A stretch of 64,000 bases of DNA, from positions 496,001 through 560,000 of the forward strand of contig NZ_JAJTWT010000003.1 in assembly GCF_021353235.1 (NCBI RefSeq), given 5' to 3'. This document shows, piece after piece, positions 26,543-43,781 of the stretch. This DNA is from Pelomonas caseinilytica (GTDB lineage: Bacteria > Pseudomonadota > Gammaproteobacteria > Burkholderiales > Burkholderiaceae_C). A model generated the notes under the pieces. The model worked only from the letters and a program-made list of their open reading frames with translations. It ran no database searches and had not been told where the DNA came from. Every line of letters starts with the position of its first letter. The stretch's first letter is position 1. A program made the translations under genes and the position numbers.

Positions 26543-27100
26543 TTACCCGTGCAGGCGGCTCGACCGGGGCACGCTGGCGAGGAGGAATTCCATCTGGTCG
26601 GCCAGGATGCGGCGCCCGCGCAGGATCATGTCCTCGTGCAGGCTGGGCACGTAGGGCAGGTAGAGCAGGCTCATGCGCGCCTCCTCGGGCAGGCGGCTGC
26701 CCTTGCGGCCGTTGCAGGGCCGGCAGGCGGTGATGCAGTTCATCCACGTGTCCTGCCCGCCGCGCGAGGTGGGGTGGATGTGCTCGCGGGTGAGGTCTTC
26801 GGGCAGGCAGCGGTGGCCGCAGTAGGCGCAGATGAAGCGGTCGCGCACGAAGAGCTTGGCGTTGGTCAGCGCCGGGGCCTGGCGCCAGGCGCGGCTCGGC
26901 ACGGCCCCGCGCACCGCGATGATGGAGTGCACCTCGATGCGGGACTGGCGTCCGGTGATGCGCTGCCAGCCGCCGCGCAGCACCTGGCAAGGATCGCCCA
27001 GCGTCCAGGCGACGCCGTCGCTGGCGTAGATCACGGCCGCTTCGCGGGTCGTGATCCAGGCCTGGGGCCGGCCGGAGACATCGAGCTGGAGCACATCCAC
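26543..27100 (-). CDS. HNH endonuclease
   Basis: 185 residues with a C-terminal HNH nuclease fold: a zinc Cys pair in CAYCGHRC, REHIHPTSRGG (first His and its partner), W-M-N, then CRPCNGRKG (second Cys pair). The N-terminal half is a small domain common to chromosomal HNH proteins of Burkholderiales, usually not phage-linked. Start is a GTG at 27100. Its purine-rich AAGAGG ribosome-site-like sequence falls inside the left end of the inverted-repeat element at 27105, so the element may supply translation signals. The biological role is unknown. Confidence 0.85.
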   Translation of the reverse strand: MDVLQLDVSGRPQAWITTREAAVIYASDGVAWTLGDPCQVLRGGWQRITGRQSRIEVHSIIAVRGAVPSRAWRQAPALTNAKLFVRDRFICAYCGHRCLPEDLTREHIHPTSRGGQDTWMNCITACRPCNGRKGSRLPEEARMSLLYLPYVPSLHEDMILRGRRILADQMEFLLASVPRSSRLHG

Positions 27101-27104
27101 TGCT

Positions 27105-27372
27105 AGGGCCTCTTCACGCTACGGGAATCGGTGCGAGAGGGTCTGCGCGGGTGTGGGGCTAGGCGCCGCGCCGAAGCCCGGGCTGATTGCCCGGGCAAAG
27201 CGCGCAACGACGCCATGCGCCCGCGCAGACCCTCTCCCAAAGGGTTGCTACTCAAAAGCCCGCGCGCGGCGTTGCGAAGCCTCGCTGGGGAGGTCCCCTG
27301 CTTCGACTTCGCGCCTTGCTCGCGGGCTTTTGAGTGGCAACGCATCCGATCCCCGTAGCGTGAAGAGGCCCT
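27105..27372. repeat. 268-bp inverted-repeat element with three-way-junction fold (MITE-like or structured RNA)
   Basis: Terminal inverted repeats of 27 bases (27105-27131 and 27346-27372) match at 26 positions. Inside are two separate long stems. Arm 1 pairs 27135-27151 with 27220-27236 (17 of 17) and is capped by GCCCGGGC 27176-27183 with 27189-27196. Arm 2 pairs 27245-27264 with 27321-27340 (19 of 20 plus one G-T). Linkers at the junction are 3, 8 and 5 bases. No convincing ORF lies inside and no target duplication is obvious at the ends. It sits between the HNH gene and the TetR gene. Either a non-autonomous mobile element or a structured RNA gene. Confidence 0.85.
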
Positions 27373-27536
27373 GACCTCCAACCGAGAGCCTAGCGAGAAC
27401 CGGGCCAGCGCTCAAGCGCGGGCCCATGACAGGCCGACGCCTCCGGGTCATCCCTAGGTTGGGCGCAGTATTAGGCACATCACCCTAGAAATCCGCGGGA
27501 CAAGGTGGCGCTGTCACGGAAGCGACCTGCAAAATA
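27373..27536. other. Intergenic DNA between the inverted-repeat element and the TetR operator
   Basis: About 160 bases with no gene recognised. It is less G+C-dominated than its surroundings in patches (for example TAGGCACATCACCCTAG) and carries no long repeat. Presumably it holds upstream promoter sequence for the tetR gene. Confidence 0.4.
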
Positions 27537-27548
27537 GAACGATCGTTC
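27537..27548 (+). promoter_or_regulatory. Palindromic operator upstream of the TetR gene
   Basis: GAACGATCGTTC is a perfect 12-base palindrome, flanked by AAAATA on the left and GTTTTA on the right, extending the dyad imperfectly. It lies 17 bases before the GTG start of the TetR-family gene in an AT-rich patch that could be its promoter. It is the likely autoregulatory site, and possibly the control site of the downstream beta-oxidation genes. Confidence 0.7.
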
Positions 27549-27564
27549 GTTTTATTCTTGCGCC

Positions 27565-28287
27565 GTGTCCACCTTGCCCGCTCCTGCCAAGAAAGCCGCT
27601 CCCCTGCGTGCCGCCAAGCCGGTGCGCGTGGCGCGCTCGCTGCAAAAGGGCCAGCAGACTCGCGCCGCCATTCTCGAGGCCGCCCTGGGCCTGGCCTCGC
27701 ACATGGGCCTGGAGGGCCTGTCCATCGGCGCCCTGGCCGACGTGACCGGCATGAGCAAGTCGGGCGTCTTCGCCCACTTCGGCTCGCGCGAGGAACTGCA
27801 GATCGCCGTCGTCACGGAATACCACGCCAAGTTCGAGGAAGAGGTCTTCTTCACCGCCATCCGCGAGCCGCGCGGCCTGCCGCGGCTGCGGGCCATGTTC
27901 GAGCGCTGGGTGCGCCGCGTCTCCGTCGAGGTCGACTCCGGCTGCATCTACATCAGCGGTGCCGTGGAGTTCGACGACCGGCCCGGTCCGGTGCGCGACG
28001 CCCTCGTGGGCATGGTCAAGGCCTGGCATGCGGCGCTGCACAAAGCCATCGAGCTGTCGGTGCAGGAGGGCCACCTCCGTGCCGATGCCGATGTCGACCA
28101 GATCGTCTTCGAGTTGCACGGCCTCATCCTGTCGCTGCACCACGACGCCCGCTTCATGCGCATTCCGGGCGCGCTGGCGCGAGCCGGCATCGGCTTCGAC
28201 CGGACCATCCAGTTCTACGCCACGCCGGCTGGCCTCGAGATCGAGCGCAGCCCCAAGACATCCCGCAACGGCGCCACACGGCGCTGA
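27565..28287 (+). CDS. TetR family transcriptional regulator of the beta-oxidation cluster
   Basis: 240 residues. A basic Lys/Ala/Pro-rich N-terminal extension precedes the TetR DNA-binding domain: TRAAILEAALGLASHMG, then LSIGALADVTGMSKSGVFAHFGSREEL. The rest is a helical ligand-binding domain with CIYISGAVEFDDRPG. The GTG start follows the GAACGATCGTTC operator closely. The acyl-CoA dehydrogenase gene begins 40 bases downstream on the same strand, so a fatty-acyl-CoA-responsive repressor of fatty-acid degradation is the natural inference. Confidence 0.86.
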   Translation: MSTLPAPAKKAAPLRAAKPVRVARSLQKGQQTRAAILEAALGLASHMGLEGLSIGALADVTGMSKSGVFAHFGSREELQIAVVTEYHAKFEEEVFFTAIREPRGLPRLRAMFERWVRRVSVEVDSGCIYISGAVEFDDRPGPVRDALVGMVKAWHAALHKAIELSVQEGHLRADADVDQIVFELHGLILSLHHDARFMRIPGALARAGIGFDRTIQFYATPAGLEIERSPKTSRNGATRR

Positions 28288-42935: not shown

Positions 42936-43781
42936 ATGGCGCGGCCCGCTCGACTCGAGATCGCCGGCGCGGTCTATCTGATCGGCGCCCATTGCCCGTT
43001 CGACAGCCGCCGCCCCGCCTTCGCCGACGAGGCCGACCGTGCCGAGATGCGCGCCGTGCTGGCCCAGGCCCTGCACCGTTTCGATGCCCAGGCCCTGGCC
43101 TACGTGCTGCTGCCCGACCACTACCACCTGCTGCTGTTCACGCGGCGGGCCAACCTCTCGCAGCTGATGCGCCACGTCAACGGCGTCTACACCCAGCACC
43201 AGCAGCAACGCCGGGCCTTCAGCGGGCCGCTCTTCCAGGGGCGCTTCCGGGCGGTGCTGGTCGACCGCGAGCGCCACCTGCTGGACGCCTGCCGCTACAT
43301 CGACCTCAATCCCGTGCGCCTGGGCCTGGCCCGCAGCGCCGCGGACTGGCCGGGTTCGAGCTTTCGCGCCCTGGCGGGCCTGGAGGCCGCGCCCGAGTGG
43401 CTGGACGTGGATGGCCTGCACGGCCACCTGCTCGGCCGGCCGCCGCAGACCGCCGCCCAGCGCCGCCAGGCGGGGGAGCGTTATGCCCGGCTCGTCGCCG
43501 CGGAGCCCGGCCTGCAGCTGTGGCCGGGGCGGCTGCGCGAGCAGATCTTCCTCGGCGATGCCGACTTCGCCCGCCGCATGCGCGCCACGGCGGGGGCGCC
43601 AAGGCGCGTGGCGCGCACGGGCTGGGCCGAGTGGCTCAAGCGCGCCTGCGGCATCCGCGAGCAGGCGCTGTGGCTGGCCCACACCCAGGGCGGCGTTGCC
43701 ATGACGGAGCTGGCCGCGCAGCTCGGGCTGTCGGTGTCGCGGGTCAGCCGCCTCATCGCGGCGGCCGAGCGGGCGGTCTGA
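42936..43781 (+). CDS. REP-associated tyrosine transposase (RAYT, Y1_Tnp family) with C-terminal HTH
   Basis: 281 residues. The N-terminal half is the IS200/IS605-like Y1 transposase fold. It has VLLPDHYHLLLF (His-Tyr-His metal motif), then HVNGVYTQHQQQRRAFSGPLFQGRF, and the nucleophile region DACRYIDLNPVR. The C-terminal third has AEWLKRACGIREQALW and GVAMTELAAQLGLSVSRVSRLI, a helix-turn-helix resembling DnaA-type or winged-helix domains of single-copy RAYTs. Such proteins are domesticated transposases that act on REP hairpins. No insertion-sequence ends flank the gene. It may process the dispersed repeats described at 21437, 35296 and 46297. Confidence 0.88.
   Translation: MARPARLEIAGAVYLIGAHCPFDSRRPAFADEADRAEMRAVLAQALHRFDAQALAYVLLPDHYHLLLFTRRANLSQLMRHVNGVYTQHQQQRRAFSGPLFQGRFRAVLVDRERHLLDACRYIDLNPVRLGLARSAADWPGSSFRALAGLEAAPEWLDVDGLHGHLLGRPPQTAAQRRQAGERYARLVAAEPGLQLWPGRLREQIFLGDADFARRMRATAGAPRRVARTGWAEWLKRACGIREQALWLAHTQGGVAMTELAAQLGLSVSRVSRLIAAAERAV

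Follow-up and report, generated by a model that had tools for sequence, protein, structure and literature searches.

A 266 bp mobile unit with the ends GGGCC...GGCCC lies in the 64,000-nucleotide stretch of Pelomonas caseinilytica DNA that was analysed (the window), and we consider it likely that this unit is a MITE moved in trans by IS427-type transposases, with a core that is kept at the DNA level, folds when single-stranded and helps the element to spread or persist by way of a putative protein. In the mechanism proposed, IS5-family (IS427-type) transposases would recognise the terminal repeats of the element and move it in trans, and insertion would take place at YTAR with duplication of the TA. 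The interior would not be filler, being an inverted dimer of one hairpin of about 100 nt around CCC-NNN-GGG, and this core would fold in single-stranded DNA, for instance behind the replication fork, thereby exposing the bulged CHAGGCGC/GCAACGCC to a putative protein that aids spread or persistence. What is observed is a mobility signature, ends shared with insertion sequences, covarying stems, conserved loop motifs and the presence of the core between other ends.

The boundaries of the element (Table 1) were set from 63 compared copies and from the empty sites found in the 19 other members of the genus. A sequence-only reading had described outer arms at 27105-27131 and 27346-27372, and a repeat search recovered them with 96% identity (26/27); the arms are therefore real, but the outermost A and T that it had included in the element are parts of the flanking dinucleotides. 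The two inner stems it had reported were found as well (27132-27151/27220-27239, 20 nt, 95%; 27244-27267/27318-27341, 24 nt, 92%), and the element folds into the three-way junction it had proposed, in which the outer stem is followed by arm 1, a very small hairpin (CCC-AAA-GGG) and arm 2. The predicted RNA fold has an energy of -205 kcal/mol compared with -125 ± 4.9 for shuffled sequences (z -16.2) and the DNA fold gives z -15.2, with 0/200 shuffles as good in either case. No ORF of substance lies inside, as had been noted: the two ORFs across the element (107 and 92 aa) mirror one another and look like by-products of the palindrome, and a degraded protein gene was ruled out on inspection of these palindromic ORFs. 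The window copy carries an identical GGGCCTC variant at both ends, and the TG on its right flank is probably a mutated TA.

Table 1. Coordinates of the element, its parts and the neighbouring gene in the window.
Feature	Position	Strand	Basis or remark
MITE, GGGCC...GGCCC	27106-27371	.	copy comparison and empty sites
TA flank, left target-site copy	27104-27105	.	
TG, right target-site copy	27372-27373	.	
Left terminal inverted repeat	27106-27131	+	repeat search
Right terminal inverted repeat	27346-27371	-	repeat search
Arm 1 hairpin	27135-27236	+	arm covariance model R1, 73 bits; arm among those building the model
Arm 1 internal-loop motif, 5' side, CTAGGCGC	27159-27166	+	
Arm 1 internal-loop motif, 3' side, GCAACGACG	27204-27212	+	
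CCC-AAA-GGG centre between the arms	27236-27244	+	kept in different taxa and with different classes of terminal repeat
Arm 2 hairpin, inverted homologue of arm 1	27244-27341	-	R1, 80.9 bits; arm also in the model
Arm 2 motif GGCGTTGC	27268-27275	+	
Arm 2 motif GCGCCTTG	27311-27318	+	
HNH endonuclease gene, 185 aa, GTG start at 27100-27098	26543-27100	-	PF14279/PF01844; open frame
Shine-Dalgarno GGAGGT of the HNH gene, now apart from the start	27374-27379	-	GGAGG of relatives

Since arm 2, when reversed, aligns with arm 1 over the full length, the core consists of a single hairpin of about 100 nt present as an inverted dimer, and in this hairpin a variable basal stem and a variable apical stem enclose the internal loop CHAGGCGC/GCAACGCC, partly paired and with bulges on either side. 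Size variants were found with no arm (45-68 bp), one arm (166-180 bp), two arms (about 265 bp) and three arms (360 bp), the last at positions 301-660 of L113 (G008:C14). The hairpins of 45-68 bp at L127-L131 consist of ends only, with matching ends, and are probably core deletions or very short MITEs.

The host genome (5.98 Mb) holds eight full-length copies, five of which are 99-100% identical and three divergent, and the window copy (contig C23) is among the divergent ones. BLAST matches were obtained in 21 of the 60 genomes searched, own genome included, with 16/20 genomes of the genus, 5/16 elsewhere in the family and 0/24 from other families. The end motif, allowing up to two mismatches, was present in 18/20 genus genomes (again including the own genome), in two of which (G015 and G019) it was no commoner than a reversed control. 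The site of the window copy was empty in 19/19 other genus genomes, where no clean pre-insertion TA could be read, and a second element site checked likewise was also empty in other genus genomes, with a junction that does not align. Among the 63 compared copies, which are not all independent given that at least three pairs share one site in two genomes, TA was found on the left in 37, on the right in 42 and on both sides in 26, leaving 37/63 without TA on at least one side; the window copy is TA/TG. A C or T precedes the left TA in 29/37 and a G or A follows the right TA in 35/42, which indicates a YTAR-like target.

With no transposase inside, multiple dispersed copies, empty sites in relatives, TA flanks and ends common to IS5-family insertion sequences (ISs), the element is as the sequence-only reading had suspected when it named a MITE as one possibility; the copies it had proposed to look for in the genome and in relatives exist, and the target duplication is seen at the level of the family. 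At least 119 stretches with the end pattern are present in bacterial genomes, and in 31 of the 119 loci among the matches listed the end pairs are 268-272 bp apart (TA included). End pairs at the spacing of the element also occur in two IMG/VR viral contigs (L450 and L453), one of which holds both arms and the other one recognised arm.

Five of the 119 loci among the matches listed have an end pair 819-830 bp apart, and three of these (L184, L207 and L248) hold two overlapping transposase-like ORFs, which were not seen in L269 and L188. The L184 proteins match PF13340, PF01609, PF13586 and NF033580 (IS5 family), the NF033580 score being 135 bits for ORF B (cut-off 110) and 100.7 for ORF A alone, and the long ORF of L207 scores 131.5 against the same model. 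Relatives of the L184 protein were found in 4/20 genus genomes. The IS ends read TA-GGGCCTGTTAACACTA in G012, G002 and G004 and are more diverged in G014; the outer 16 nt are equal to the MITE family consensus at 16/16 positions and to the window copy at 13/16. Of five plasmid records matched, three have a similar end directly next to a gene annotated as an IS5-family transposase, and the copy on an Enterobacter cloacae plasmid, 805 bp in all, is bounded on either side by the repeat and CTAG. The candidate partner is an IS5-family (IS427-like) IS of about 0.8 kb, present in three genomes of the same genus and on plasmids, and the terminal repeats of the element match those of this autonomous IS, as they do in IS5-family MITEs of the IS427 group. 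ISs of this group are described, in an excerpt of PMC3281130, as being about 830-865 bp long with overlapping ORFs and mostly 2-bp duplications, and a TA duplication is given for ISPsp10 in a passage of PMC4133298. Searches of the host genome gave no cognate IS5-family transposase and no PF13340 match (this domain is present in 5/20 genus genomes). An IS630 partner, the first guess from the CTAG target, was dropped after the IS5-family IS with identical ends appeared; the IS630 domain PF13358 was absent from the search of the own genome and present in 5/20 genus genomes. The arm hairpin was not detected in any of the 13 IS5/IS630 loci tested.

Covariation was examined in an alignment of 49 non-redundant copies (28 from the genus, one from another genus of the family and 20 from other taxa), obtained by reducing 82 two-arm copies to 55 under 90% identity (mean identity of this parent set 58%) and leaving out six (L145, L151, L158, L224, L243 and L247) with an orientation that was unclear by the GGGTTG rule; the folds of L151 and L158, outside the alignment, keep the layout of the element. 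The copies span Beta-, Gamma- and Zetaproteobacteria and Acidobacteria, the rows from other taxa including isolates of Thiomonas, Variovorax, Pseudomonas and Dyella as well as MAGs of Acidobacteriaceae and of a zetaproteobacterium; several of the distant hosts are MAGs, in which contigs can be misplaced. In this alignment 93.3% of cells pair and double compensatory changes occur at 76/92 pairs, so that the stems do covary, as the sequence-only reading had suggested should be checked. The covariation score was 0.578 compared with 0.162 ± 0.006 in a shuffled control, a contrast inflated by the relatedness of the copies, and 0.07-0.15 for slid versions, over which the structure is favoured because it was derived from the same alignment. 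The CHAGGCGC...GCAACGCC internal-loop motifs and the CCC-NNN-GGG centre are conserved across the 49 copies. The share of the majority letter is high at the outer end (0.91), in the two loop motifs (0.87 and 0.90) and in the centre (0.88), and low in the inner part of the outer stem (0.60), the basal stems (0.56 and 0.66) and the apical stems (0.66 and 0.68).

The arm model R1, built from 70/98 arms (5 odd arms were dropped and the rest thinned by hand), matched 30 arms in the host genome, 95 in G012 and 32 in G008. Among the 30 host arms, 16 belong to the eight full-length copies, 11 lie in six two-arm elements that have other ends (CTAGTCCACTGCG and CTAGGGAGGGTCTGC in two elements each, AGGAGTCTGCGCGG and GGAGGTCATCGGGC in one each; L361, which is among these six, was assigned its class on a single end, and a later local scan supplied its second arm), one lies in a single-arm element whose end is different again (AGAGGTTGAGAGG), and for two no end repeat is clear. 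The order of the motifs is kept in 64/70 model arms and in 44/46 arms of loci whose ends are of another kind or unclear (33 loci picked by hand from 52 in the host genome, G012 and G008), the latter conservation being partly circular because the arms were found by a model made from motif-bearing arms. Mostly single-arm elements with other terminal repeats (e.g. AGAGGGTGAGAG, AGGGAAGCGCTGAA and AGAAGCTGTGAA) were also seen at L362, L373-L375 and L393-L411, and on one contig of a Burkholderiaceae MAG there are three elements, each with a different kind of end. CCTGT is common to class 1 and some of the other end classes, which may, by this resemblance, be old relatives. In a tree of 70 cores (the 49 aligned copies and 21 added by hand, with end classes assigned by eye) the end classes look mixed; keeping class T1 together was not rejected (AU p = 0.122, or 0.255 when three long rows are left out), and for class T2 the same test was borderline (p = 0.048). 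An exchange of ends is thus not proved by the core tree, which old co-divergence would also fit. Plasmid searches for transposases of the other end classes with queries of 31-32 nt gave no IS5 matches; one query matched IS21 genes and another an unrelated Treponema gene. We put forward as a tentative proposal that the core is itself the selfish DNA module, a bulged-hairpin dimer that would be read as single-stranded DNA by a putative protein and ride between the terminal repeats of several IS5-like elements, so that its spread through Proteobacteria and Acidobacteria would reflect a change of ends and not decay from one IS.

The element could instead be an ordinary MITE with an inert core, in which the palindromes are kept only by template switching, with one arm copied onto the other, and we regard this as rather unlikely. 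Matching changes at both ends could stem from such copying without selection, and an A to C change present at one end of the copy on contig C34 (L003 of G000) and at both ends of the copy on C1 (L006) has the appearance of stepwise compensation; the absence of a significant strand bias among wobble cells, described below, is also as expected from copying. Against this explanation, the asymmetric motif bulges have not been homogenised and are kept in distant taxa, they are also kept between other ends (in the partly circular search), and the end-to-end spacing of 268-272 bp recurs among the matches listed. Given that arm-to-arm copying would erase asymmetric bulges, yet the bulges persist, selection on them appears to be the better reading.

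The sequence-only reading had also offered a structured RNA and had held that the G-T pair in arm 2 suits one. That selection acts on RNA, whether on a structured regulatory RNA or on an element of mRNA stability or termination, seems improbable to us, even though the fold is very stable and transcripts of bacterial MITEs are reported, in parts of PMC10969869 and PMC2229807, to fold and to affect neighbouring genes. On pairs chosen from the RNA fold, the arms have more G.T than A.C cells (69/30 and 101/46, with 36/32 for the outer stem), but such a set is biased, since G-U pairs are allowed in an RNA fold and A-C pairs are not. When the pairs predicted for both strands are counted, the G.T/A.C figures are 19/22 in the outer stem, 38/24 in arm 1 (p = 0.10) and 36/43 in arm 2, with no significant excess of G.T, although the near two-fold symmetry of the element leaves the test with little power should either strand be transcribed, and the counts lean towards G.T when summed in motif orientation (38/24 plus 43/36 for arm 2 reversed). 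The fold is real and covarying, but the G-T pair does not speak for an RNA, and the lack of a significant wobble bias on both-strand pairs indicates that the core is probably kept at the DNA level. One terminator-like match lies inside the element (0.5 expected); against a role as RNA, no sigma-70-type promoter match was obtained at 26900-27700 and the element has no Rfam match at gathering score.

It is very improbable that the element is a REP-like dimer mobilised by a Y1 (RAYT) transposase: the inverted hairpin pair with its short fixed spacer does resemble REP head-to-head dimers, some of which lie inside palindromes according to an excerpt of PMC3733652, and Y1 genes are present in 20/20 genus genomes, but the arms are about 100 nt compared with 20-40 for REPs, the ends match IS5-family ISs, and at 30 of the 40 listed Y1 places the arm model gave no associated element, only two weak matches (18.5 and 15.6 bits; E = 0.04 and 0.26). 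A PF01797 (Y1 transposase family) match lies in the window at about 43005-43304 on the + strand (33.6 bits), with no arm hairpin within about 1.5 kb.

The earlier statement that no named family has this layout stands in so far as neither Rfam nor searches of open-licence papers returned a name. At gathering score Rfam matched only three tRNAs, located elsewhere in L242, and a match to MIR1151 (32.7 bits, gathering 90) was taken as chance. Inspection by eye for attC-like and IHF sites in the element, against consensus sequences that come in part from PMC3281130, gave no good fit. IS5-family (IS427-group) ISs and IS-derived MITEs resemble the element in the consensus outer 16 nt, the TA flanks and the YTAR-like target, and in a non-coding interior; unlike in IS-derived MITEs, that interior is a conserved, covarying two-hairpin core and not a deleted IS. 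The element, with 0, 1, 2 or 3 arms, shares a modular build with the BOX elements of pneumococcus, which are made of modules with other sequences. As described in portions of PMC2229807, the CIR repeats of Caulobacter and Brucella are similar in having two long hairpin arms, a linker and a structure conserved between genera, but their two arms come without terminal pairing and they expose GANTC, whereas the present element has an outer stem joining its ends and different motifs. The same portions describe RUP (tied to IS630-Spn1), Correia/NEMIS and ERIC as short, multi-copy, stably folding elements with terminal repeats at TA, like the element, whereas their stem-loops form by end-to-end pairing and are armless. 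The REP head-to-head dimers, an inverted hairpin dimer framed by a palindrome in the excerpt of PMC3733652, consist of REPs of 20-40 bp with a GTAG or CGTC tag, whereas the hairpins here are larger and no Y1 association was found.

The window copy lies before an HNH endonuclease gene. In 17/19 relatives GGAGG is located 8-9 nt before the conserved GTG of this gene, and in the window the order is GGAGG-TCA, element, TAGCA-GTG, which without the element gives 8 nt compared with 8-9 in relatives; as judged from the sequence, the insertion splits the Shine-Dalgarno from the start codon. In a folded transcript the paired ends of the insert could bring the Shine-Dalgarno back to 8 nt from the GTG, but in the predicted fold the Shine-Dalgarno is itself paired with a stretch immediately after the start and would be masked. 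A putative alternative ribosome site is the AAGAGG within the repeat, the GAGG of which ends 8 nt before the GTG. The window copy is a natural case in which to test ribosome bridging from Shine-Dalgarno to start codon over a folded insert of 266 nt. Nearby, a palindrome around GAACGATCGTTC (27532-27553), just before a TetR-like gene at 27565, is a possible autoregulatory operator of that gene.

The element is of a known kind, a MITE in the features examined, and the conserved dimeric core is its new part, with a function that we infer. Bacterial MITEs are usually regarded as remnants of ISs, and their interior as devoid of meaning. In this element both the shape of the interior and specific letters of its internal loops are conserved across distant taxa, and a related core is found between several kinds of ends, which makes the question of whether the interior of a MITE does anything directly testable.
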